Below, one piece after another: positions 1-11,539 of a DNA stretch of 48,738 nucleotides. Location of the stretch: contig CASIAI010000006.1 in the NCBI GenBank assembly GCA_949372655.1, positions 1 to 48,738 on the forward strand, given 5' to 3'. Position numbers and translations under genes: made by a program. Below the pieces are notes generated by a model. It made no database searches. It was not told where the DNA came from and saw nothing but the letters and a program-made list of their open reading frames with translations. Position 1 is the first letter of the stretch; every line of letters starts with the position of its first letter. Source of the DNA: Candidatus Poseidoniaceae archaeon (lineage in GTDB: Archaea; Thermoplasmatota; Poseidoniia; Poseidoniales; Poseidoniaceae).

Positions 1-1
1 A

Positions 2-1855
2 ACCCAAAATAGTCTAGACGCATCCAAAAATGGTTCGCAAGTTCGAATGAAAATATCAATTAATACTGGCCCTAATTCATTAGATCCTGGTACTGCTAGA
101 AAATATTTTGATGGTTTGTTTCCCCACCTTGAAGCTTCAGGAATTAGAACACCTGACCCTAAAAGTTCGATGAATTATGTTGTAGTGGAAGACTTTGGGA
201 CAAAGGGATTAGAAGGTGATGGTGAATATAATGGACTAGGTGATGATGCACCTGATAACAGATTTTACTGGTTTCATAGGAACACAAATAGAACAAATGA
301 TAATTTAACTAAACGCGGAGGTTCTTACGGATATGGAAAGCATGCATTTGCTAACGCATCTAAAATCAAAACATTTTTTTCAGTATCTCGAGACAAAAAC
401 GGAATCAAAATTTTTGGCAATTCAATTGGCCAAATGCATGAATTGGATGGTAAAATATTTCTCCCATACGGAGATTATGGAGAATTGAAGACCTTTGGCG
501 AGAAAGGAGACGCGGTAATTCCCTCTGATTCAGAAAGATTGTTTTTACAAATGTGTGAAGATTTCGGTCTTTCACGAAGTAAGAAAACAGGTTTGTCTGT
601 TATCATTCCATACCCCGAGAAAATATATTCTGATAAGGAAATTATTGAAAGTATGATTCGAGCATATTTCTTGCCCATATGCCAGGGGAAATTGGTGATT
701 GATGTCGACGGATCTCATCCGATATCAATCGATCAAAACACTATCTCTAAAATTTGTGACCGCCAAACTTGGTCAGGAAAACCAGCAGGTGCGATGGCAA
801 CAACCAATCGTAAGTGTATGAATGGACTTATTGAATTAGCCAACTGGTGGTGTTCAGGGAATGCAAATGAAATTTCCCTTCATGCACCTTCTGAAACCAA
901 TATTTATTGGAATAGTGATTTGATTCCATCAGAGAGCTATGATACTATCAGATCCCGTTTAGATTCAGGAAAACCAATCGCCCTGAATATTGAAGTTCCG
1001 ATTTACAAAAAACTAGAAAATAATCGGACTCCTCGTGTACCCAGTAAATCTAGATTCACAATTTTAATCAAAAAAGATGAGGCTTATGGAAGAAATGATG
1101 CAATATGGATTCGAAGATACCTATCTGTTCCAATAACATCTTATTTGCCTAATAAAAAAGGCTACATCGCTATTATGATTTCAGAAGATGGAGAATTAGA
1201 AGAGTTACTAAGAAGCAGTGAGGAAGTTGCTCACACTGAACATCGAGTAAAGAGAATCGAATCAAAGTACAAGTATGGTGGAGATATCCTTAGATTTTTC
1301 CGTAAATCTGCTTCTATCTTAATTGAGTACCTACAAATAAAGAAAGACTTGTTTGAGAAAGACTGGATCGATGATTGGTTCCCTTCAGAGGAAATTGAAG
1401 AGAGTAGTAAACCTAGAAAGAGAAAGCGCAAAAAGAAAACTCAACAAACACCCGAAGAAGATGATGACGAGGAGATAATAATTGGACCACCACCACCTCC
1501 TGAAGATATGACAGATAACCACTCATGGGAATTGCAAAAAATACCAGGGGGTTATTGCATTCATGGAGACATAAAATTGAAGGTAAATTACGTATTTAGA
1601 GTGAAAATGGCATACGCCCGTGACGATGGAAAAGACCCAATGAAAAAGTGGAAACCATTTGACTTCGATATAGAAAAGCTCAATCTTGAGAGCGCTGGTA
1701 TTGAAATAGAAAAAATTGAAAATAACACAATTGTGTTTACAGCAATCGGCCCAACTGATGAATATAGTATTGATGTTACAGGCTTTGATATTGAAAGAGA
1801 CTTATCGGTACATTGCAAGCCTACACTAATTAGAGGTGAAGACGATGGCGAGTAG
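2..1855 (+). CDS. GHKL (MutL/MORC-like) ATPase of a restriction-modification island, 5' end outside window
   Basis: The first internal ATG is at 47, but the frame stays open to base 2 and upstream codons read TQNSLDASKNG, the N-box (NSLDA) of GHKL ATPases. The gene therefore begins left of the window and ATG 47 is not its start. The Bergerat fold continues with VVEDFGTKGL (DxGxG-type motif, about 47 residues after ATG 47) and a glycine-rich lid GGSYGYGKHAF. This lid resembles the MORC-type GHKL ATPases reported in prokaryotic restriction-modification loci. After the ATPase/transducer part comes a basic KRKRKKK stretch, an acidic run, a PPPPP segment (codons near 1410-1500) and then a predicted all-beta C-terminal domain. 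No nuclease motif is seen. It overlaps the next gene by 11 bases. Family assignment is from motif recognition; the biochemical role (ATP-driven clamp or motor aiding restriction) is inferred. Confidence 0.8.
   Translation, partial: TQNSLDASKNGSQVRMKISINTGPNSLDPGTARKYFDGLFPHLEASGIRTPDPKSSMNYVVVEDFGTKGLEGDGEYNGLGDDAPDNRFYWFHRNTNRTNDNLTKRGGSYGYGKHAFANASKIKTFFSVSRDKNGIKIFGNSIGQMHELDGKIFLPYGDYGELKTFGEKGDAVIPSDSERLFLQMCEDFGLSRSKKTGLSVIIPYPEKIYSDKEIIESMIRAYFLPICQGKLVIDVDGSHPISIDQNTISKICDRQTWSGKPAGAMATTNRKCMNGLIELANWWCSGNANEISLHAPSETNIYWNSDLIPSESYDTIRSRLDSGKPIALNIEVPIYKKLENNRTPRVPSKSRFTILIKKDEAYGRNDAIWIRRYLSVPITSYLPNKKGYIAIMISEDGELEELLRSSEEVAHTEHRVKRIESKYKYGGDILRFFRKSASILIEYLQIKKDLFEKDWIDDWFPSEEIEESSKPRKRKRKKKTQQTPEEDDDEEIIIGPPPPPEDMTDNHSWELQKIPGGYCIHGDIKLKVNYVFRVKMAYARDDGKDPMKKWKPFDFDIEKLNLESAGIEIEKIENNTIVFTAIGPTDEYSIDVTGFDIERDLSVHCKPTLIRGEDDGE
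1833..1839 (+). promoter_or_regulatory. Ribosome binding site GAGGTGA
   Basis: GAGGTGA lies inside the 3' end of the ATPase gene, five bases before ATG 1845. It decides that ATG rather than GTG 1836, which is part of the motif itself. The same motif with 4-5 base spacing precedes the genes at 14125, 46715 and (as GGGGTGA) 47100. Confidence 0.6.
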
Positions 1856-2339
1856 AAATTTCAATTATACGGGTAGAATGTTAATTACTCAGGAATGTAT
1901 CGATGCAAGACTTTCTGAGATTTTACAAGGACAAAAACCCCCGTTGTTAGAAATTGAGTTTGATTGGGAAATGAAGCCAGCGCTTATGGAGATCCCTTCC
2001 GATGCAGAAGTATATGTCGATGTTTGGAAAGACATGTCATTTATGCGCTTTGATTATGGTAGATTCGGCAACCCATCCTCTCCTGATAATGTATCGCTGT
2101 CTGAGTTAGATTCTTGGACAAGTGCTAGTTTTGTTGTGAGAATAGTAAAAAATGGTATTATTCTTGGTGCTAGTAAGAAATATTCTGTATCGATCGCTCA
2201 ACCTGACTTAAAGTCAAGAAGAAGCTTAATTATTGCAGATTATGAAGACTTGGGGGAACGTCCTTGGAAGTTAGATGTATACGAAGACATACCTCTGCCA
2301 AGATTGGTATTTAATAAAAATGGTGGGATGCTGCAATGA
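1845..2339 (+). CDS. Unknown protein of the ATPase/R-M operon (164 aa)
   Basis: I do not recognise a family. The start at ATG 1845 is chosen from the GAGGTGA five bases upstream; a GTG at 1836 would add three residues. The protein is soluble: no signal peptide or membrane segment. It contains acidic and aromatic beta-type stretches such as EVYVDVWKDMSFMRFDYGRF and ends in PLPRLVFNKNGGMLQ. It overlaps the upstream ATPase by 11 bases and the downstream gene by ATGA, so translation is probably coupled and the product probably works with the ATPase. No catalytic motif is visible. Confidence 0.75.
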   Translation: MASRNFNYTGRMLITQECIDARLSEILQGQKPPLLEIEFDWEMKPALMEIPSDAEVYVDVWKDMSFMRFDYGRFGNPSSPDNVSLSELDSWTSASFVVRIVKNGIILGASKKYSVSIAQPDLKSRRSLIIADYEDLGERPWKLDVYEDIPLPRLVFNKNGGMLQ

Positions 2340-2662
2340 ATTCTAGCAAACCTCTTCAAAAGGATTCCAAAGTAATGGGGATGATAATGCCATCCGTATT
2401 TGAGGGAATGCTAAATTTCCTGATCATCAATTTAAAATCCGATTTGCATCGCTGGTATGAAGACCCATCTTGGAAAGGCGCATGGATACGGTTTGCAAGA
2501 ACATTGTTACCTGAAAACCCGCCTCCCGATTACGTCGATAATGAAACAGATGATGCCGAATTTTTACGCGATGCAACTGAATGGATAGGGAATGTTGTCG
2601 CAAATTATAGTGAGAGTAAGGCTCTTTCTTCTAACTTAATTGATTTGGGGGGTGCAGAATAA
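2336..2662 (+). CDS. Unknown small protein of the ATPase/R-M operon (108 aa)
   Basis: Not recognised. It starts in an ATGA overlap with the preceding stop, which indicates translational coupling. The sequence is mainly helical: MIMPSVFEGMLNFLIINLKSD is amphipathic rather than a clear membrane helix. It then has a Trp-rich part (HRWYEDPSWKGAWIRFARTLLP) and an acidic tail. Its small size and position between two equally orphan genes suggest an accessory subunit of a complex with the GHKL ATPase. That is inference from context only. Confidence 0.7.
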   Translation: MNSSKPLQKDSKVMGMIMPSVFEGMLNFLIINLKSDLHRWYEDPSWKGAWIRFARTLLPENPPPDYVDNETDDAEFLRDATEWIGNVVANYSESKALSSNLIDLGGAE

Positions 2663-2663
2663 C

Positions 2664-3446
2664 ATGGTGGAATTCAGAGTACTTACTGACGAAGGAGTCC
2701 AAATGTTTAGAACATTCTTGGAAGAAAGTGCTAGATCAGGAGAACCTGCACCAACCCATCTTTTGAATGACCGAACTTATTCAAAGGATTTCACGCCCAA
2801 AATTCATATCGCTATGTCAATGAAATTCGAATCAAAACAAGATTTCGGTAGATATCTTGTCAAGGTGTTTGATGATGCAGGAGTTACAAGACAAATGATT
2901 TCCAAAAACCGTAACTTTTGGACATCACTCGTATTACGTTATTTTGATCAATTTTGTTCAGTCGACAGTAATGGTAGGAGAAAGGTTCCTATGGAAAAGA
3001 AAGATCAATATGAAAAATATCCAAAATTCATACCTCGATATATCTCAAGTGGAAGTGAACAATCACTACGTGGAAGAAGACACTATGCACTTGGACCTTA
3101 CCTGATTTATGATTACAACAAGAATACCGAACATCAAGCAGATGTCTTGCTTTCTGGAAGCTTGGATTCATGGGGAGATGATGTTGAACAGACCGCAGGT
3201 AGAATCGAAGTGATATCAAATAAGAATTTGATCGGAGTCATACGTCTTCTGTACTGGGATGAGGAAGCCGGTTCTTTGCGACGAGGATATTCAACAAAAA
3301 CTCGGCCTGGAAATATCAATCGATTAGTTGCAGATTTGAGAAATCAGATGAAACTAACCGCAGACTGGTATTCAATGAGCGCCAAAGAGATTTACGATTC
3401 ACTACCTGAAGAGTATGATTTTTGGAAAAGGAAACGAGGAGATTGA
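2664..3446 (+). CDS. Unknown protein of the ATPase/R-M operon (260 aa), possibly DUF6339-like
   Basis: ATG 2664 follows the previous stop by one base and is preceded by a G-rich GGGGGGTG at 2647-2653. A TTG at 2640 would overlap the upstream gene and is less likely. The protein is soluble, charged and Arg/Tyr rich, with landmarks NFWTSLVLRYFDQF, GRRHYALGPYLIYDYN and a C-terminal YDFWKRKRGD. The middle section vaguely recalls proteins called DUF6339 that I remember near methyltransferase/HNH/ATPase loci; I cannot verify this. It is the last gene before the methyltransferase, from which it is separated by about 43 bases without an obvious terminator. Confidence 0.7.
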   Translation: MVEFRVLTDEGVQMFRTFLEESARSGEPAPTHLLNDRTYSKDFTPKIHIAMSMKFESKQDFGRYLVKVFDDAGVTRQMISKNRNFWTSLVLRYFDQFCSVDSNGRRKVPMEKKDQYEKYPKFIPRYISSGSEQSLRGRRHYALGPYLIYDYNKNTEHQADVLLSGSLDSWGDDVEQTAGRIEVISNKNLIGVIRLLYWDEEAGSLRRGYSTKTRPGNINRLVADLRNQMKLTADWYSMSAKEIYDSLPEEYDFWKRKRGD

Positions 3447-3489
3447 ACCTAGAAGAGTCATTAACCCCCTTCATTGACAGTAATGTGTG

Positions 3490-3840
3490 ATGCCCATGAG
3501 ATTAGGAACCGTATTCTCAGGCATAGGAGCAATAGAACATGCACTCGAAAGAATGGGTATCGATTATGAAGTTGCATTTGCTTGTGACAACAGTAATCTC
3601 GATTGGGCAGAGAAAGTCACATCGTTAAAGAAATTACAAGATCTGCTTGCTAAATTGGACGATTCAGGGGCCTCATTTGAAGGACTGCACAAGCTTAACT
3701 GCTGCTGGATGGGCGAATGTAGCCAAGATGAGGAGTTGTCCCTGCAAGGTATCAAACCACAAACCGCTTTGAAAATGAAAAGGATTTCCTTAAACTTTCC
3801 AACACATCACTGGTTTGTGAATTCCACAATGCACTACTAG
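3490..3840 (+). CDS. C5-cytosine DNA methyltransferase, N-terminal fragment (frameshifted)
   Basis: This carries SAM-binding motif I (LGTVFSGIGAIEHAL) and the motif II region (VAFACDN) of Dcm-type cytosine-5 methyltransferases. Start candidates are ATG 3490 and ATG 3496. Motifs IV to X continue in the next reading frame (codon phase shifts by -1), so one base appears to be missing. The frames can be joined only between the stop at 3727-3729 of the downstream frame and the stop at 3838-3840 of this frame; beyond about 3770 the downstream frame reads more naturally (FENEKDFLKLSNTSL). A- and C-rich short runs at 3755-3785 are plausible sites. As read, this fragment alone cannot be active. Confidence 0.8.
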   Translation: MPMRLGTVFSGIGAIEHALERMGIDYEVAFACDNSNLDWAEKVTSLKKLQDLLAKLDDSGASFEGLHKLNCCWMGECSQDEELSLQGIKPQTALKMKRISLNFPTHHWFVNSTMHY

Positions 3841-3875
3841 CTAACAAAGAAGTCGATCTTCCTTCTATCGAGGAT

Positions 3876-5081
3876 GTGTTAAGATTGAGTATTCAATCAA
3901 TTTCAGATCCAAAGTTGAGACGTGAATTAGTGAATGAACTCTATGAGTTGCGTGGAAAAAAGGCATTCGTCGAGGAATCATATCTTGCAAATTATGATTG
4001 CCCTCCTGAACATTTCCACAAAGACGTTTCATTTTTGGACGGTAAGCAGTATGAAGGAGAAATCGATCTATTCGTTGGAGGAAGTCCCTGCCAAAGTTTC
4101 TCTTTCGTTGGCCATCAAGGTGGGTTTGATGATGCTAGAGGGACCCTCTTCTATGATTTTGTACGATTGGTCGACGAAATAAAGCCTAAGATGTTCATTT
4201 GGGAGAACGTCAAAGGTGTGTACACTCACGATAAGAAAAAGACGTGGGAAGTTATTTCAAAGTGCTTTGATAATACTGGTTATACTTGGCATCACGCAGT
4301 CCTTAATTCAAAGGATTACGGAGTTCCACAACATCGCCAAAGAGTGTTCGTGGTTGGCTTCCTTACCGACGGTTCTGATTTCACATTCCCGGAGTCTGTA
4401 GAACTAAAAAGCAAGATGCAAGATTTCCTCGAAGATAACGTAGCAGGTAAATTCTATCTTGGAACCAAGGGTGTTGATTTTGTAACTTGGGAGAAAAACC
4501 ATAGGAAACAGTATACCCAAATCGACGGAGAAATCATGCTTTGCCAGAAAGCAAATCAACAGTTCAATTGGCATGGTGACTTTGTTTTCGTGGAAGAAAA
4601 TAGCGGCCAGCACTTGATAGATGAGAAGCACTTCCTTAGCCAAAAGGTTGAGGCATACGTAATGGCAACTGGTACGAAAGGCTTCAGATCAATACCAAAG
4701 ATTGATCTCGAGGTTGCAAGGCCTCTGCTCGCAACAATGCATAAGAATCACAGAGCAGGTGTCGACAATTATGTAACTACTGAAGGACGACTTCGTATGC
4801 TAACACCTACTGAGTGTTTGAGGCTAATGGGATTCTGTGATTCATTCAAACAGGTAGTATCAAACAACCAACTATACCGACAAGCGGGTAACTCAATTGT
4901 CGTTGATGTCCTGATTGCAATCATGGCACAAGCGATTCCAGTACTTGCTGCTGATGATAATACATTCAATAGTCTCAAAGAAAGGGCCATTCGGGTCAAA
5001 GAGTTATTCGATGAATTACCTGAACGACAAATTCAGCAAGTCGACTTAGACCGCGTCGTAGCAGCTCTATTAGAAAACTAG
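3876..5081 (+). CDS. C5-cytosine DNA methyltransferase, catalytic and C-terminal part (frameshifted)
   Basis: All remaining Dcm motifs are in order: catalytic GGSPCQSFS (motif IV PCQ), WENVKG (VI, ENV), QHRQRVFVVGF (VIII), a variable target-recognition region of about 120 residues, RMLTPTECLRLMGF (IX) and GNSIVVDVL (X). GTG 3876 is only the first start-like codon; related sequence extends up to about 3732 in this frame and the true N-terminus is in the 3490 fragment. Together the two pieces would give about 530 residues, with an insert between motifs II and IV that is longer than in minimal Dcm enzymes. It would methylate cytosines to protect against the adjacent endonuclease. Its end overlaps the convergent HNH gene by four bases. 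Confidence 0.85.
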   Translation: MLRLSIQSISDPKLRRELVNELYELRGKKAFVEESYLANYDCPPEHFHKDVSFLDGKQYEGEIDLFVGGSPCQSFSFVGHQGGFDDARGTLFYDFVRLVDEIKPKMFIWENVKGVYTHDKKKTWEVISKCFDNTGYTWHHAVLNSKDYGVPQHRQRVFVVGFLTDGSDFTFPESVELKSKMQDFLEDNVAGKFYLGTKGVDFVTWEKNHRKQYTQIDGEIMLCQKANQQFNWHGDFVFVEENSGQHLIDEKHFLSQKVEAYVMATGTKGFRSIPKIDLEVARPLLATMHKNHRAGVDNYVTTEGRLRMLTPTECLRLMGFCDSFKQVVSNNQLYRQAGNSIVVDVLIAIMAQAIPVLAADDNTFNSLKERAIRVKELFDELPERQIQQVDLDRVVAALLEN

Positions 5082-5755
5082 ATCTCTCTATCAGATTTAA
5101 TTCTGTTATGAGTCCTACAAAGTAACTGCAAATTTCTGTAAGTAGTTTTTCCTCCCCTAGAAAATGGAACGATATGATCGAATTCCAAATTCTCGTTTGA
5201 ACCACAAACCTCTCCAGTATTCTTGTCAAGTCGGGAATCAAGCTTATAATTTGCTTGACACATTCCTTGGTCTCGCCTCCATACCCTGTCTTTCAAATCA
5301 TCACTGATTGTGCGACTATCTTCAGGGATCGGCTTGACTCTAGTCTGTTTGGCTTTCCTCTGAGGCTTCTTCTTTCTCGATTTGCTCTTCATCCCACTTG
5401 TTGGATTGACCGCTCTTTCTTCGTCCGAGCGTAAAATTCTCACAACATAATCACATGAACCATCATCATTACTTGATTTGACTTCGATTAACAAGGTTGA
5501 AATTAGTGGTAAACAAGTCTGTCGAATTAATTTCCAAGCTTCGCTAGTACCACGAATGTAATATCTTGACTTGTCTTCATGGTAAGTCAAATCTATTCGA
5601 TTGTCCTCTAACCTCTCAACTTTATTGAACAGCTCGCGATGTAGTTTTTTACTCACTGCCTTGTATTTGCTTTGTTTTGAAAATTCAAGTTCTACGTCTG
5701 AAGGTAAAGCAGTAATTCGACTTGGTCTAACTCGTAAGTATTCATTGGATGCCAA
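5078..5755 (-). CDS. HNH endonuclease domain, C-terminal piece of a restriction enzyme
   Basis: The last 75 residues form a canonical HNH nuclease: DLKDRVWRRDQGMCQ, Cys pairs (GMCQ, GEVCGS and LLCRTHN), catalytic EFDHIVPFSRGG and the N...H box YRNLQLLCRTHNRIKSD. Before it is a Lys/Arg-rich linker (KSRKKKPQRKAKQTR). The frame opens only 20 codons before SNEYLRVRPSR and the first start-like codon is TTG 5755, inside the 3' end of the upstream 5692-6690 frame. I read this as the C-terminal part of the same polypeptide, split by a frameshift near 5740. Overlapping separate genes remain possible. It converges on the methyltransferase with a four-base overlap. Confidence 0.8.
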   Translation of the reverse strand: MASNEYLRVRPSRITALPSDVELEFSKQSKYKAVSKKLHRELFNKVERLEDNRIDLTYHEDKSRYYIRGTSEAWKLIRQTCLPLISTLLIEVKSSNDDGSCDYVVRILRSDEERAVNPTSGMKSKSRKKKPQRKAKQTRVKPIPEDSRTISDDLKDRVWRRDQGMCQANYKLDSRLDKNTGEVCGSNENLEFDHIVPFSRGGKTTYRNLQLLCRTHNRIKSDREI

Positions 5756-6690
5756 TTGCAGAAGAATCTTTCATACCCTTCTTTATTCTTAACTGGTCCA
5801 ATATACAGCTTTGCTTCACCATTACCGCGATCATTGGCTAACTTGATTTTCCTTTGGACAAAAGAGCTTGGAATGTTAGCGACAATGTGATCTTTCGATT
5901 GAATATTTGAACCAGTTTTCTGAGGCTTTATTCTCGATAACCAGTCTGTGGGGCCATTCTTGATTCTCTCTGCCCAATCGTTTTTGGTTCTCCAATCTCT
6001 TAACCATTCACAGTTGACAGTTCTGTCTTGAGTTCGCTCTAAGGTAACAAACAGATTATCAATCGTCATACCTTGGTCTGTCATTTGTTTTGTTTCTAAT
6101 TTCTGCATAACGTATATGCCTGAAAACTCCACATAACTTTGTCTGTTTCTTACGAAGTGTAATATTGGAATCTGACTCTCTTCTGCTTCCTTCAGATATC
6201 TATTACCTTGAAAATCCATCATGCTTTTTCCAGAATGTTGCTTCGCGTCTCCCCAATAGAACATAGTAGAATCTCTTGAGTCTATTTTGTCATCCCAAGG
6301 GTTGTGTAAATTCCCAGGTTTATGACTTGTTACCAAGATCAATGCATCCAAACCAGAGTGCCCAGTTCTTAGTGACTTTAATCCACGAATCCCTCCCGCA
6401 TTTCTTATTCCACTGCCTTCTAAATTTATCCATCCCATGAACTCATCTTCACTTGATGTTGGCTTTCCAGTACCCCTATACTCTATCCCAATCTTGAAAA
6501 CTTGCGAGTTATTGTCGCCTAGATCCTTTCGCTCAAGTTTGAATTTTCTATTGCCGCAATATCTGAACACTACTGGGTCAACAGTGGCTTCATTATTATC
6601 GAGGAGCTGGGAGTAAGATCCTGCAAGATATTCCTTTATCTTTGATTGAGTTTGTGGGTCTGATTTCCAAGAGAATTGGTATCGTCTCAC
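5692..6690 (-). CDS. Restriction endonuclease, target-recognition (AspBHI-N-like) central piece
   Basis: This 332-residue frame contains GSGIRNAGGIRGLKS, a Gly-rich strand-loop, and a DSTMFYWGDAKQHSG...GNRYL signature. The YxGD(N/A)K...GNR pattern resembles the N-terminal, SRA-like DNA-binding domain of AspBHI/MspJI-type and other modern restriction enzymes. I therefore read it as the DNA-recognition part of the HNH enzyme. GTG 6690 is a chance start: the codon two before it is TGA and the neighbouring frame (6596-6994) reads smoothly up to RKLLPSKLIKR, where this frame continues as RRYQFSWKSDPQTQS. A single-base shift near 6690 explains both. The family call is recollection of a motif pattern and needs a profile search. 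Confidence 0.6.
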   Translation of the reverse strand: MRRYQFSWKSDPQTQSKIKEYLAGSYSQLLDNNEATVDPVVFRYCGNRKFKLERKDLGDNNSQVFKIGIEYRGTGKPTSSEDEFMGWINLEGSGIRNAGGIRGLKSLRTGHSGLDALILVTSHKPGNLHNPWDDKIDSRDSTMFYWGDAKQHSGKSMMDFQGNRYLKEAEESQIPILHFVRNRQSYVEFSGIYVMQKLETKQMTDQGMTIDNLFVTLERTQDRTVNCEWLRDWRTKNDWAERIKNGPTDWLSRIKPQKTGSNIQSKDHIVANIPSSFVQRKIKLANDRGNGEAKLYIGPVKNKEGYERFFCNWHPMNTYELDQVELLLYLQT

Positions 6691-6994
6691 GCTTAATCAA
6701 TTTTGAAGGAAGCAATTTTCTGACTTTCGTTCTGTTCATATTTACTAGTCTAATCAAAAAAGGGTACTCTTCGTTTGCTATAACCAATGTTGCACTTTGT
6801 TGGAGATTTGTTTTGGACAAGTCAAACTCTTGTTTTAATGATGGATAAATTGCCTTTGGACATGTGAAACATTCTGCCTTTGATTTACCAATGCCAAAGA
6901 AACCTTTCTTTGGAGTCATTGTAAAAGTCAACACATCGTCTGACACGATTAAACCAACACACCTGCATTGATCTAATTTGTCATTATTTTTCAC
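6596..6994 (-). CDS. Restriction endonuclease, N-terminal piece
   Basis: Starting from GTG 6994 this frame reads VKNNDKLDQCRCVGLIVSD, contains a Cys-containing segment (KAECFTCPKAIYPSLK) and runs to PSKLIKR at about 6690. There the coding signal moves to the frame of the next piece; the last 30 residues of the open frame (to 6596) are probably out-of-frame read-through. The GTG overlaps the end of the recombinase gene by 11 bases, so the two could be co-transcribed. Joined with the two downstream pieces the enzyme would be about 640 residues: N-terminal domain, AspBHI-N-like domain and C-terminal HNH. Function of the N-terminal part alone is unknown. Confidence 0.55.
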   Translation of the reverse strand: MKNNDKLDQCRCVGLIVSDDVLTFTMTPKKGFFGIGKSKAECFTCPKAIYPSLKQEFDLSKTNLQQSATLVIANEEYPFLIRLVNMNRTKVRKLLPSKLIKRETIPILLEIRPTNSIKDKGISCRILLPAPR

Positions 6995-7115
6995 GAGCGA
7001 TAATTCGTGACACTTGTTTGTGCGACCATTTTCCTCCACGTTTGGTTGGAACCCCACAAGTGTTCAATTCTCTTGCAATTTGAGAGATTGAGATGCCATC
7101 TTCATGATATCTGCA
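6984..7115 (-). CDS. Serine recombinase, C-terminal HTH piece (frameshifted)
   Basis: This frame reads CRYHEDGISISQIARELNT, GVPTKRGGKWSHKQVSRII, the helix-turn-helix that ends resolvase/invertase-type serine recombinases (GxSxxxIAxxLN...P...G.W....V..IL pattern). It continues the 7102-7701 frame after one extra base at 7116/7117: removing one of the two C bases there gives IEYIK followed directly by CRYHEDG. Stop TAA lies at 6984-6986, and the endonuclease gene begins 11 bases before it. The upstream open frame to 7355 is antisense noise over the other piece. Confidence 0.75.
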   Translation of the reverse strand, partial: CRYHEDGISISQIARELNTCGVPTKRGGKWSHKQVSRIIAREK

Positions 7116-7701
7116 CCTTGATGTATTCAATCCAATACTGTTCTTCTTCATTCTCGACGAAGTTGTTGTCCTCATCGACATCCCAACCGTATTTGTCGTA
7201 GGTGAATCGCCGACCTGTATCTTTGAGATGTTGCAGAGCCATGGTGGTTCGCTCGCTGATGAGATTACGCTCCATTTCACCAAAGGCAGCCAAGATTGTG
7301 ATGAGCATTCTACCGACTGCTGAAGACAAATCAAGAGGTTGTCCTCCTGATTCACAGAATTGAATTCCTATGCCAAATTCATCTAATTCTTCCACCGTAG
7401 CAAGGCAATCGATGGTGCTGCGAAATAATCGGTCCATTCTGTAAGCAAAAATGTGCTTAATTTTCTGCTTGAGGATGAACGCCTTCATCTGCTTAGCAGC
7501 AGGTCTTGACCATAATGGCACCTTGGCACTCACTCCGTCATCGATGAAAATATTCTCATCAGGAAGCAGTAAATTACGAAATTCTGCGTTAGCTTTTCCT
7601 TTGGCAATTTGAGCATCTATGCTCACTCCATCCTCCGCTTGACGAGTTGTTGATACTCGAACGTAGAGAACGCATTCTTCTGCTTGTTTCTGCTTAGCCA
7701 T
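7102..7701 (-). CDS. Serine recombinase (resolvase/invertase family), catalytic piece
   Basis: Catalytic-domain motifs are complete: nucleophile context LYVRVSTTRQAEDGVSIDAQ (Ser in RVST), YRMDRLFRS (conserved DR.xRs), GRMLITILAAFGEMERNLISERT (E-R...ERT at the E-helix). Start ATG 7701 (MAKQKQAEE) is chosen because homology begins there; the open frame runs further to 7872 but that part contains the direct repeat and hairpins. The frame ends at a TGA at 7102 shortly after YIK because of one extra base at 7116/7117; the HTH follows in another frame. With the shift repaired the protein is about 238 aa, the size of compact Pin/Tn3-type recombinases. It would move, excise or invert the island. Confidence 0.85.
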   Translation of the reverse strand: MAKQKQAEECVLYVRVSTTRQAEDGVSIDAQIAKGKANAEFRNLLLPDENIFIDDGVSAKVPLWSRPAAKQMKAFILKQKIKHIFAYRMDRLFRSTIDCLATVEELDEFGIGIQFCESGGQPLDLSSAVGRMLITILAAFGEMERNLISERTTMALQHLKDTGRRFTYDKYGWDVDEDNNFVENEEEQYWIEYIKVQIS

Positions 7702-7753
7702 CAATCCAGATTTCTCAGGTTTACTATATACGCTCACGCGACGGCCGAAATCT

Positions 7754-7800
7754 CGGACACTGGGTTGGTGTGTCCGTCTTTTTCTGCTTGTAGAAGCAGA
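7754..7800. other. Two adjacent perfect hairpins beside the recombinase gene (candidate recombination or control site)
   Basis: CGGACAC (7754-7760) pairs with GTGTCCG (7770-7776) around a nine-base loop, and TCTGCTT (7783-7789) pairs with AAGCAGA (7794-7800) around GTAG. They lie in the 140 bases between the recombinase start and the 285-bp repeat. Serine recombinases commonly act at sites next to their own gene, so this is a candidate res/att or operator. On the plus strand the first hairpin is followed by TCTTTTTC, so a terminator is an alternative. Confidence 0.4.
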
Positions 7801-7840
7801 AGTAAAAGTGGATTTTCGGGTTGCTATATGGTCGGCCATA

Positions 7841-8125
7841 CTGCACTCTATGCCCGAATAGATTTTCCCCAATTAGTAATTAGATAAACACCCAATCCAA
7901 TAGATATAATCTGAAAAGCACTTTCTAATGCCGGAATCATTCTATTTTCTGGTGAGAAAATTGAGTTATTAAATTGTTCAAAAATCAAAAAACCATCTTG
8001 ACTAAAAATAACATCTAAAATTAAGATGAAATAAATTGAATAAACTCTGAACGTTAGCCAAACGTTCCAATCTCTCAAAGTTAAGCAAAATATTATTGGA
8101 ATAAATATTGCCATTAATCCAGGGA
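7841..8125. repeat. Direct repeat copy 1 (about 285 bp), flanks the 834-aa surface-protein gene
   Basis: This stretch is nearly identical to 10764-11049, in the same orientation 2.92 kb away. It begins at CTGCACTCTATGCCCG, exactly where the recombinase-side sequence stops. Differences seen by eye are few: a T/G near 7970/10894 and CTTGACT versus CTCTGGCT near 8010/10925, the latter giving a one-base length change. Homology resumes after a 186-bp gap: 8131 (CCTTCCGCAATATTGAG) matches 11241 onward to about 8175. Confidence 0.9.
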
Positions 8126-8178
8126 CCCCCCCTTCCGCAATATTGAGGGCTAGAATTATTCGAGCAGTATTTGTAACA
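7848..8178 (-). pseudogene. Remnant of the membrane-protein gene (internally deleted second copy)
   Basis: The 88-residue frame from 8114 (MAIFIPIIFCLTLRDWNVW) matches the C-terminal third of the 212-aa membrane protein encoded at 10901-11539. Upstream of that ATG the same frame still reads TARIILALNIAEG and then jumps to VPGLMAIF, compared with LNIAEGC...FFFPGLMAIF in the other copy: 186 bp (62 codons) are missing, in frame, around a run of seven C. Unlike the other copy, its C-terminus is undisturbed and reads through to NWGKSIRA. Homology ends near 8178 with no start codon or N-terminal half, so it is a fragment. Confidence 0.75.
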
Positions 8179-8249: not shown

Positions 8250-10754
8250 TTGCGAAAACTGGCAATAATTATTTTCGTGATTATCTTCCTGCCTATAGTT
8301 ATTAACGGAGAAATAATCGAAAGTCACTTAGAAAATGATGATTATTTATCTCCAAATGAATTCAAATACTCATCAGGATTTAATGATGATATTGATGCTA
8401 GCTACTCTCCAATCAGGACAACTGAACAAAATAATTATTACACGAATACCGAATGGTCTTGGAGTGATGTGTTCAGTCGTTACACATGGACTCAAAGCCT
8501 TGTTAACCAACCAATCGAGGAATATGAATCCATAGAATACTGGTTTTATGTTTCCGAATCAAACGTTGGCTCAACAGTCGTTGGTTCAATGAAAATAGAC
8601 GATGTTAATTTGTTCTACGATCCTGATATTGATTTGTATCTATATGATCCTCTAGGAAACCTAGTTTCAGCATCAAATACATATTCTGCATGGCAGGAAG
8701 AATTCCACGAAGTTGTGTACATGTCTGGTTATTGGTTAGCATTAATAGATAATGTAGAAAATCTCAATGGGCAGTATGATTTTGATAGAACCTTTATAGA
8801 AAACGCAAAGCCGACAGTTATCTTAAACCAGTATTTGGAAGGAGTTTATTCACCATTTATCCATGAAACCTGGTCTTTCAATGCTTGTGAATCATATGAT
8901 GATAATTCTATCGAACTTACTTTTCAATGGAGAATCAACGGAGAAATTCAATCAGATAATGATTGTAGAATATTAGTAGATGAATTCCATGAGTTGTCTG
9001 AGTACACAATCTCTGTGACTATTACTGACGAATATGGTAAATCTGCTTCAGAATCAATTATTGTTGAAACTAATTCTTATCCGTCAACAAAAAGTAGTTT
9101 ATCCAATATTTCATTATCATTGGATAATATCGAGAACTCACAAATAAGTCAAAGAAGCGATATGAAGTATGTCAATGTCCCATTTTCTTCCAACGATTTT
9201 TGGGTTGTCCTCGATATGAATTATAATATTAGAACCACTACAAATGGTGAAGTAAATTATTACAACAATATCATTGAACTTAATGAAAACGAGGAATGGC
9301 GTTTAGACTTAGAAATTGGAAACGTAAATGCAGATTATAAATTAGAGTTTAAACCAGAAATTGTGTTGTGGTTTTATTTCGTAGAAGATGGAGAATGGAG
9401 AGATTTGCGGCTCCCCGTTCCTTCAATTGAGCCGATTGAAGCTTATCCTAACCAGCCATCAATCGAATTTTTAGGGCAGGAAATATATTACTGGGAAGAT
9501 TATATTGAAATTCCTGTTGAATACACTAAAGATGGGATGACTTTTTTATTAGATGAACGAGTGGTAATATCACAAATTGATTTATACCCTTTTGTTGAAG
9601 AATTGGTTACGAAATATACTGGTTTAGGAACGGGATTATCAATTATCAATTTCTTTTCAGATTTTGAAATTCCATTGTCTTACTCAATTGATATGACCGT
9701 TATTGGTGATAATTATCTAAGTGTAATTACTTCATTAGATGGAGCAGAAACCGATATTGGTACTGAATGGAGTGAAGACTACTTAAGTGAGACTCACTTT
9801 AATTCTGATAGTATATGGAATGATTCTTTCCCCGAGCTACTCAACACAAGTATCGATATTTCTAGAACTTTAAACAGCAGTGTTGTTGAGTTAAACCAGA
9901 TTGCATTAATCAGCAGAGATATTCACAGTATTTTACAACCCAATATAGACTTATCATTCAATGTTCTTGGTGAAACCTTGGCCCAGTTCGATATTTATAG
10001 TTGGGAAGAAACATATACATTTGATTCATCAAGATATATCCACCCAGCGACTCTCCATTGGAAATGGGAAGCAGACTATGACAATGATTCTATTTCAGAT
10101 ATTAATGACGATTTTCCATTTGATTCTACACAATGGTTGGATCAAGATAATGATGGTTTAGGAAGTAATCTCTCAGGAAATAATCCTGACTTTTGTCCAG
10201 ATAAAGCCGGGAACATGAGTAAATCAGGATTGTTTGGTTGTCCAGACGAAGATGGCGATGGAGTAACGAATGACTTAGATGATTGTGAAAATACGGAATT
10301 AAACGATTCATATATCAGTAGAAATGGATGCACAAATGACCAAGTTTCATTCTTTGAAATGGAATACCAAGTTGCTGGGAATGTAGTTCAAATGCCAGTT
10401 ATATTCGGGGGGACTTCGACTCTAATAATAGTAATATTAATTCTAATATTTATTCGAAGAAAAAAGTCGACACCTGTTTTTACCCAAGGACAAACAGAAA
10501 TGGGATCTTTAAATTTCGAACAACAATTTAACCCATACTTGCCAAAACTGGAATATCAAAAACCAATTGTTACAAATAGTCACTATAACAACTATCAAGT
10601 TCAACAAGTCAATCAAGGGCTCTCAAATTTAACCCCTCATAAATCTCTACAAGGCCAAATTAACGATGATGGTTTTGAGTGGATTTTACATGATAGTAAA
10701 TGGTTTTGGCGTAAATCAAATCTAGAAGAATGGATTGAATATAAATCTCAATGA
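8250..10754 (+). CDS. Large secreted, membrane-anchored surface protein with PKD-like and Ca-type Asp repeats (834 aa)
   Basis: N-terminal signal peptide (LAIIIFVIIFLPIVING), then an extracellular part with a beta-domain resembling pre-peptidase C-terminal domains (DIDLYLYDPLGNLV, residues about 125-185), a PKD-like segment (NACESYDDNSIELTFQWRI...YTISVTITDEYGKS), an uncharacterised middle, and thrombospondin-type-3-like acidic repeats (DYDNDSISDINDDFP, DQDNDGLGS, DEDGDGVTNDLDDC, about 610-690). A transmembrane helix follows (about 713-735, IVILILIFIRRKK) and a cytosolic tail of about 95 residues ending in a Trp-rich ILHDSKWFWRK motif. The start is TTG 8250 with GGCGAG upstream. Acidic repeats suggest calcium binding at the cell surface. 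It sits exactly between the two direct-repeat copies. Function is unknown beyond surface attachment. Confidence 0.85.
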   Translation: MRKLAIIIFVIIFLPIVINGEIIESHLENDDYLSPNEFKYSSGFNDDIDASYSPIRTTEQNNYYTNTEWSWSDVFSRYTWTQSLVNQPIEEYESIEYWFYVSESNVGSTVVGSMKIDDVNLFYDPDIDLYLYDPLGNLVSASNTYSAWQEEFHEVVYMSGYWLALIDNVENLNGQYDFDRTFIENAKPTVILNQYLEGVYSPFIHETWSFNACESYDDNSIELTFQWRINGEIQSDNDCRILVDEFHELSEYTISVTITDEYGKSASESIIVETNSYPSTKSSLSNISLSLDNIENSQISQRSDMKYVNVPFSSNDFWVVLDMNYNIRTTTNGEVNYYNNIIELNENEEWRLDLEIGNVNADYKLEFKPEIVLWFYFVEDGEWRDLRLPVPSIEPIEAYPNQPSIEFLGQEIYYWEDYIEIPVEYTKDGMTFLLDERVVISQIDLYPFVEELVTKYTGLGTGLSIINFFSDFEIPLSYSIDMTVIGDNYLSVITSLDGAETDIGTEWSEDYLSETHFNSDSIWNDSFPELLNTSIDISRTLNSSVVELNQIALISRDIHSILQPNIDLSFNVLGETLAQFDIYSWEETYTFDSSRYIHPATLHWKWEADYDNDSISDINDDFPFDSTQWLDQDNDGLGSNLSGNNPDFCPDKAGNMSKSGLFGCPDEDGDGVTNDLDDCENTELNDSYISRNGCTNDQVSFFEMEYQVAGNVVQMPVIFGGTSTLIIVILILIFIRRKKSTPVFTQGQTEMGSLNFEQQFNPYLPKLEYQKPIVTNSHYNNYQVQQVNQGLSNLTPHKSLQGQINDDGFEWILHDSKWFWRKSNLEEWIEYKSQ

Positions 10755-10763
10755 TTGCTATTT

Positions 10764-11049
10764 CTGCACTCTATGCCCGAATAGATTTTCCCCAATTAGT
10801 AATTAGATAAACACCCAATCCAATAGATATAATCTGAAAAGCACTTTCTAATGCCGGAATCATTCTATTTTCTGGTGAGAAAATGGAGTTATTAAATTGT
10901 TCAAAAATCAAAAAACCATCTCTGGCTAAAAATAACATCTAAAATTAAGATGAAATAAATTGAATAAACTCTGAACGTTAGCCAAACGTTCCAATCTCTC
11001 AAAGTTAAGCAAAATATTATTGGAATAAATATTGCCATTAATCCAGGGA
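10764..11049. repeat. Direct repeat copy 2 (about 286 bp)
   Basis: Near-identical to 7841-8125, in direct orientation. It begins ten bases after the stop of the 834-aa gene at the same CTGCACTCTATGCCCG boundary. It has one extra base near 10925 relative to copy 1. Beyond 11049 this copy continues with 186 bp absent from copy 1, and similarity returns at 11241-11290. Confidence 0.9.
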
Positions 11050-11539
11050 AAAAGAAATTGGTATCTTTTGGGTAGAACATAAAGCCCAGAATGAAACAAT
11101 ATGAATAACCAATTATCCAAATAATATTATCAAATCCTAAATTTTGTTTTTCATTAAATGAAAACTTCGGCATCGTCATAATTAGAATTAAGCATAATAA
11201 AGCGGTTGAATACTGCTTTAATGAAAATAATAAGATACACCCTTCCGCAATATTGAGAGCTAAAATTAGTCGAGCAGTATTTGGAACGTATGGGTGAAAT
11301 ATTTTCAACCACTCTAGTTTATAGTAAAATTTACTTTGTACTGTTGAAAGAAAAACAATTGGAATAATAACGCTATATGTTTTAGCAAAATAAAACCAAT
11401 TCCATCTCGAAGTATCGGCAATAAATGGAAAAGTTAGTGCTATAAAAATAGTAAAGTATAGAGTGAAAGTTCTATACTTTTCAGTCAGAATAACAAATAA
11501 AATACAACAAGAAACCAATGCAAGATATGATAGCATCAC
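10901..11539 (-). CDS. Polytopic membrane protein, C-terminus frameshifted (212 aa)
   Basis: A multi-pass membrane protein, about six to seven hydrophobic helices from MLSYLALVSCCILFVIL to FRVYSIYFILILDVIF, with no recognised family. The frame ends in DVIFSQRWFFDF. In the duplicated copy (7848-8114) the same sequence continues as DVIFSQDGFLIFEQFNNS and on to NWGKSIRA. The change traces to CTCTGGCT versus CTTGACT at about 10921-10928, a one-base gain here, and the nucleotide sequence downstream stays conserved to 10771. The ancestral protein was therefore about 255 aa and this copy has probably lost its last helix. Start ATG 11539 or 11536. Confidence 0.65.
   Translation of the reverse strand: MMLSYLALVSCCILFVILTEKYRTFTLYFTIFIALTFPFIADTSRWNWFYFAKTYSVIIPIVFLSTVQSKFYYKLEWLKIFHPYVPNTARLILALNIAEGCILLFSLKQYSTALLCLILIMTMPKFSFNEKQNLGFDNIIWIIGYSYCFILGFMFYPKDTNFFFPGLMAIFIPIIFCLTLRDWNVWLTFRVYSIYFILILDVIFSQRWFFDF

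Follow-up and report, generated by a model that had tools for sequence, protein, structure and literature searches.

Does the ATPase gene cluster at the start of contig G000:C6, from a Candidatus Poseidoniaceae archaeon, represent a new kind of defence system or a variant of something already described? The entire contig was analysed (48,738 bases, referred to here as the window; the assembly comprises 1.58 Mb in 10 contigs and is 75% complete), and the locus in question, the island, occupies its first 7.9 kb. The initial annotation described a GHKL ATPase followed by three tightly coupled orphan genes, a Dcm methyltransferase, an opposed HNH endonuclease with an AspBHI-N-like domain and a serine recombinase, and regarded the combination as being without precedent. 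Here, we show that the ATPase gene (gene A) and its partners (genes B and C) are one conserved gene unit. We put at roughly 0.6 the probability that A-B-C is an ATP-driven accessory of restriction–modification (R-M) systems, which couples DNA recognition or methylation state to a separate nuclease encoded in the adjacent DNA.

Ten translated open reading frames (ORFs) of the island were scanned against the Pfam, PADLOC, NCBIfam and PHROGs libraries. Clear family matches were obtained for Dcm, HNH, AspBHI-N and serine recombinase, as the initial annotation had proposed, and the three small ORFs behind the ATPase gave nothing above background in the four libraries. These three packed ORFs are real, but they represent only two partner genes. 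ORF 1836–2339 corresponds to positions 2–152, and ORF 2336–2662 to positions 156–242, of the 250-position B profile, and in the nearest relative (L005/L013; G233, Candidatus Poseidoniales archaeon AG-457-A01) B is a single 269-aa gene. Because the first two ORFs cover consecutive halves of one profile and are a single gene in this relative, the partners are a split gene B and gene C, and we rejected the idea of three separate orphans.

The AlphaFold model of B, calculated from the L013 sequence, consists of eleven strands followed by six helices (predicted local distance difference test, pLDDT, 82; predicted template modelling score, pTM, 0.57), and the model of the window C protein is almost all helix (pLDDT 88, pTM 0.86). 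Sequence searches of solved structures gave no match for B or C. With no family or solved-structure sequence match for either protein and a nearly all-helical model of C, a nuclease function of B or C is not favoured, and the models lead us to read the two proteins as probable adaptors. A tandem pair of diverged C genes is present in a Tepidiformaceae locus (L015, 11681–14250) and in a Dehalococcoidia locus (L016, 4183–5642).

Conservation of the unit was assessed in 27 scanned loci, all fetched via A and including some that are closely related (L018/L019, L011/L021). Twenty-one loci besides the window belong to its type. The remaining five (L006, L007, L009, L010 and L012) are contig-cut or of the PDC-M33 type discussed below, and the window-type B and C profiles had no match in them. 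B lies directly behind A in all 21 window-type loci, and C follows in 20; in the sole locus without C, L014, the contig ends 88 bases past a short B ORF. As all loci were found through A, B and C were not selected for. The order A-B-C on one strand holds in the loci examined. Of 19 loci, 11 have an A–B overlap of 4 or 8 bases, and 12 have a B–C overlap of 4 to 11 bases.

Co-occurrence of the ATPase and its partners across many lineages, which the initial annotation had put forward as a test of a system, proved to be strong. Among 369 genomes of one class, C was found in eight, and A was adjacent on the same contig in every one of them (P 8e-13). The association held without the centre genome G308 (P = 2e-11), proteins of which, from locus L029, are present in both query alignments; seven further genomes contained weaker A matches only, and no C. 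Within 292 Poseidoniales genomes, C was found in two and A in both. Additionally, the pairwise distances of A, B and C correlate with r of 0.95–0.98, and with 0.87–0.93 after thinning of close loci, and in each case none of 5000 permutations gave a value as high. Such near-equal distances fit the expectation for one unit.

The ATPase gene itself was confirmed, although it is truncated by the contig start. Its only clear library match was the PADLOC model PDC-M33A (1.9e-9); no nuclease family in the four libraries matched it, in agreement with the earlier statement that the ATPase lacks a nuclease motif. The full-length protein of the nearest relative is 42% identical. An ExxxH motif, situated towards the C-terminal end of the putative S5 domain, is conserved in all 45 aligned ATPases, including that of the window. 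The GHKL N-box is intact in 43 of the 45, with the window lacking only the residue lost at the contig start; the G2 box is present in 43, and motif 2 (D/G/G) in 28, with variants in 17. Against solved structures, a profile search started from A returned a single weak match below 0.01 (0.0067, the uncharacterized protein 6anz).

ParaMORC1–5 ATPases have been described in R-M operons, paraMORC2 being distinguished by an ExxxH motif, and DNA looping has been proposed for the GHKL ATPases of R-M systems (Iyer, Abhiman and Aravind 2008; PMC2292703). ParaMORC2 shares with the window ATPase the GHKL motifs, the conserved ExxxH, an R-M neighbourhood with Dcm and Vsr, and a sporadic spread; the uncharacterised domains in the legend of Figure 2 of that paper might include B or C. 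The ATPase was detected in only three of the 292 genomes of the same order, namely that of the window, G233 and G067 (in which the copy is more distant and contig-cut), a distribution on which we rejected a housekeeping MutL. It also occurs in four plasmid records and, via alignments, in 19 loci of the species-genome collection, in which L005 is the same locus as L013. No relative was found in viral contigs scanned with the window's ATPase; a scan with the ATPase alignment identified two loci (L011 and L012), and a search of GenBank phages with the L029 ATPase gave one weak match.

PDC-M33 is a phage defence candidate in PADLOC-DB 2.0.0, with A, B and C models of which C is DUF6339. Like the window unit it has the order A-B-C, and its A model recognises A of the window as well as that of relatives (5.8e-14 and 2.1e-26). 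In contrast, none of the scanned PADLOC and Pfam models recognises the B and C proteins of the window branch. The PDC-M33 models match all three genes in L043, but only A in the tested window-branch proteins: PDC-M33B had no match up to an E value of 1 in the window, L005, L008 or L029. Nor did it have one in L009, although C of that locus matches the PDC-M33 C model. Profile–profile comparison with hhalign suggested that C is a distant DUF6339 relative: against a deeper set of 12 and 13 sequences of PDC-M33 type, window-type C aligned to the DUF6339-type proteins (88.7%, 2.6e-6, 163 columns), whilst crossed controls reached 0.3% or less. An earlier comparison with few PDC-M33-type sequences had given a weak match for C and nothing for B.

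A further tie between the branches is a small conserved protein of approximately 75 residues, the gene for which precedes A in some loci of each type, 15 of 34 in total (L011, L012, L014, L021, L022, L024, L027–L030, L043, L044, L046, L047 and L050). It was also seen in L079 and L084. Its best family match was an unconvincing one to Cas11a (8.5e-4), and in the window its place falls beyond the contig start. Going by these sequence comparisons, the window unit is a divergent, R-M-associated branch of the listed PADLOC candidate. The claim of a combination without precedent was thus not upheld, since the paraMORC2 signature and its R-M setting have been published and the A-B-C type is listed as PDC-M33. 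Our literature search found no paper on DUF6339 or PDC-M33, and only PMC2292703 on paraMORC2.

The R-M setting proposed in the initial annotation extends to the relatives, in which C5-methyltransferases and nucleases also adjoin A-B-C. Dcm lies within the fetched flanks of 12 of the 19 species-collection loci, where approximately 0.28 would be expected by chance, and 12 of the 16 DUF6339-type loci that were opened also show one; methyltransferase genes are often next to C. The neighbouring nucleases are varied, comprising the AlwI family (L043 and L045), MutH/Sau3AI (L044), EcoRII-C (L079 and L087), MvaI/BcnI (L025) and an AspBHI-N plus Mrr enzyme (L013/L005). Most loci contain a C5-methyltransferase, and A, B and C themselves encode no nuclease recognisable from sequence. 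It is this frequent proximity to C5-methyltransferases and varied nucleases that makes an R-M accessory the best reading of A-B-C.

We propose that the MutL/MORC-like ATPase, a protein of paraMORC2 type, probably forms a dimer on DNA when ATP is present, and that the strand-rich B and helical C would link the recognition or methylation state of the DNA to the nuclease encoded next door. This partner would be a modified-cytosine reader of AspBHI type in Poseidoniales, and EcoRII-C, AlwI, MutH/Sau3AI or MvaI/BcnI elsewhere. We infer the formation of a complex, ATP-driven gating of the separate nuclease and a role against viruses.

Some observations weigh against this reading. The hhalign match of window-type B to PDC-M33B is weak (8.8%, 0.0038). 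No restriction enzyme was recognised in several loci, for example L018 and L019, and in L027, L029 and L030 only Dcm and Vsr were recognised, among neighbours that were not all family-scanned. Dcm genes not associated with A-B-C also often have a Vsr neighbour.

A-B-C could instead be a stand-alone defence system, namely a divergent PDC-M33 that does no more than share islands with R-M genes. Going by the scans made, the PADLOC models of PDC-M33 cover A, B and C only; L018 and L019 are without Dcm or Vsr, and in the stretch of L007 that was viewed an AIPR gene is present but no methyltransferase is annotated. Given that methyltransferase neighbours are far above chance and often next to C, we consider such independence unlikely.

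The presence of Vsr raises a second alternative, in which A-B-C is a MutL-like repair helper that, together with Vsr, corrects the T:G mismatches arising from deaminated Dcm 5-methylcytosines. Vsr occurs in 11 of the 19 species-collection loci and beside the DUF6339-type modules L043, L046, L050, L085, L086 and L087, a MutH-family enzyme is present in L044, and Escherichia coli MutL acts with Vsr and MutH according to PMC2292703. Yet no Vsr was found in the 75% complete window genome (G000), and the sole Vsr of AG-457-A01 (G292) is on another contig. Vsr also accompanies Dcm with no module nearby, for example in G294, G302, G303 and G305, and adenine-methylating genes lie beside the modules L017, L042 (by annotation), L010 and L045 (both by eye). 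A dedicated repair function appears quite improbable in this light, and we retain the R-M accessory as the preferred reading.

Both the HNH and the AspBHI-N-like domain named in the initial annotation were found, on the minus strand, in overlapping ORFs (Table 1). AspBHI-N nucleases were present in three of the 292 Poseidoniales genomes, each less than 4 kb from a GHKL ATPase; this proximity in all three genomes is a new observation. In one of these genomes, G228 (locus L101), a cassette that holds both a GHKL ATPase and Dcm adjoins the same recombinase as in the window, together with an AspBHI-N enzyme. Across 219 residues, the window AspBHI-N ORF shares 39% identity with the L013 enzyme; no solved structure matched the window ORF by phmmer at an E value of 0.01. 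Cytosine-pocket residues of AspBHI were taken from PMC4499157, with the alignment register taken from L101/AspBHI. Equivalents of W69, D71, Y82, G84 and D85 are kept in the window, L013 and L101, and all three have Trp for Tyr at position 83, His for N63 and Lys for R87.

The window ORF therefore resembles the MspJI family in its N-terminal SRA-like domain and in keeping most cytosine-pocket residues, but it lacks the C-terminal Mrr-cat nuclease of that family, an HNH domain being found in the neighbouring frame instead, and unlike the MspJI family it adjoins a C5-methyltransferase. MspJI-type enzymes (AspBHI-N plus Mrr_cat) are encoded at 9443–10621 of L101 and 12849–14006 of L013, and a C5-methyltransferase gene is present on each contig. 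The arrangement presents a puzzle, as a methyltransferase that produces 5-methylcytosine shares its cassette with a nuclease of a type that reads modified cytosine. Given the ATPase in all three AspBHI-N-bearing genomes, the ATPase complex may keep the nuclease off the cell's own methylated DNA and release it on invaders.

Table 1. Features of the island, by position in the window
Feature	Position	Strand	Evidence
Gene A, GHKL ATPase of paraMORC2 type; N-terminal ~43 residues lost at the contig start	2–1855	+	PDC-M33A 1.9e-9; own profile 2.7e-130; ExxxH
Gene B, split across two frames (ORFs 1836–2339 and 2336–2662)	1836–2662	+	Profile B 7.5e-30 and 2.2e-12
Gene C, open frame, mostly helical (predicted); likely start 2664	2640–3446	+	Own profile 7.6e-59; distant DUF6339 match by hhalign
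Dcm C5-cytosine methyltransferase, two frames (3487–3840, first motif; 3876–5081)	3487–5081	+	Pfam DNA_methylase 7.8e-66; TIGR00675 4e-69
225-aa ORF with an HNH nuclease domain; frame differs from that of the overlapping AspBHI-N ORF	5078–5755	-	Pfam HNH 1.9e-10
AspBHI-N ORF (SRA-like, modified-cytosine reader type), 332 aa	5692–6690	-	Pfam PF18062 4.5e-17
Serine recombinase, two frames	6984–7872	-	Resolvase 1.6e-29; intact L101 copy 97% identical across 242 residues
Outer end of the recombinase unit (conserved), located where the recombinase frame starts	7804–7846	-	Window/L101 DNA identity ends at 7846

The N-terminal piece of Dcm also matches phrog_116 (3.9e-6). Between the recombinase and the nuclease lies a 153-residue ORF (6599–7057, minus strand) with no convincing family match in the same four libraries. 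The base composition of the island (0.396) hardly differs from that of the host part (0.407).

Four of the six island genes are split, counting AspBHI-N/HNH as one: B, Dcm, the AspBHI-N/HNH nuclease and the recombinase each occupy more than one frame, and A and C are open. The initial annotation had missed these splits. AspBHI-N and HNH may once have been one gene. With four genes split, the window copy is probably not functional as a whole, and its sequence suggests that it has probably decayed. Alternatively, the split frames could be base-calling errors near the contig end, the island being intact in the living archaeon. All of the breaks are less than 7.9 kb from a contig end, and G228 carries an intact recombinase that is 97% identical over the first 242 residues. 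However, gene A, which fills the first 1.85 kb from that contig end, is open, as is gene C, and compared with same-genus relatives all 19 host gene regions listed at 11.6–35.7 kb are in a single frame, placing the concentration of breaks in the island. Host regions were listed only if more than half of the relative's protein was covered, such that a badly broken gene could escape; one further row flagged as split represents two neighbouring genes that are whole in two other relatives. The 19 unbroken regions do not support an indel-rich assembly overall, at least for the host part. Sequencing error is thus a doubtful explanation to our minds, and decay the simpler one.

Related serine recombinases were found in 29 of the 292 genomes, and we compared 13 close copies (the window, L101 and 11 further stretches). 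The window recombinase shares 93% DNA identity with the G228 copy. An outer end of approximately 50 bases is common to 10 of the 12 other copies, and the sequence outside it mostly differs, although L125 and L127 are at one site and some other outer flanks are alike further out. Seven of the 13 contigs (L122, L124, L125, L127, L128, L130 and L131) end within the recombinase or approximately 200 bases from it, which fits strain-variable DNA beyond. The six copies with sequence beyond the recombinase (the window, L101, L104, L123, L126 and L129, the last retaining only a recombinase remnant) adjoin six different defence cargos, a new observation. As well as the window cassette, these include an MZA-like system, PLD plus an SNF2 helicase, a type I methyltransferase, a helicase with a weak DpdA match, and MksE with a weak JetC match (Wadjet-like) plus an adenine methyltransferase. 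Among 11 more distant copies (L110–L116 and L118–L121), a DNA methyltransferase gene is directly next to the recombinase in four and not in seven.

At the recombinase end of the island, direct repeats (7841–8177 and 10764–11287) duplicate the 3′ part of a host membrane-protein gene; the repeated stretches are 99%, 93% and 92% identical, and the frame of ORF 10901–11539 leaves the other copy near its end. The position of the recombinase suggests that it may move the cargos beside it. No Poseidoniales or archaeal serine-recombinase defence element was recognised in the titles and opening lines of abstracts among the literature matches listed. By a tentative analogy with the staphylococcal cassette chromosomes, Poseidoniales serine-recombinase elements might carry swappable defence cargos, in one of which the ATPase complex could restrain a nuclease on host DNA.

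Our analysis gives two unnamed families, B and C, a constant position next to a MutL-like ATPase in archaea and in several phyla of bacteria, and PDC-M33, an untested candidate, gains a branch that the searched models miss. A recombinase beside such varied defence cargos would help to explain the exchange of defence genes among uncultured marine archaea.

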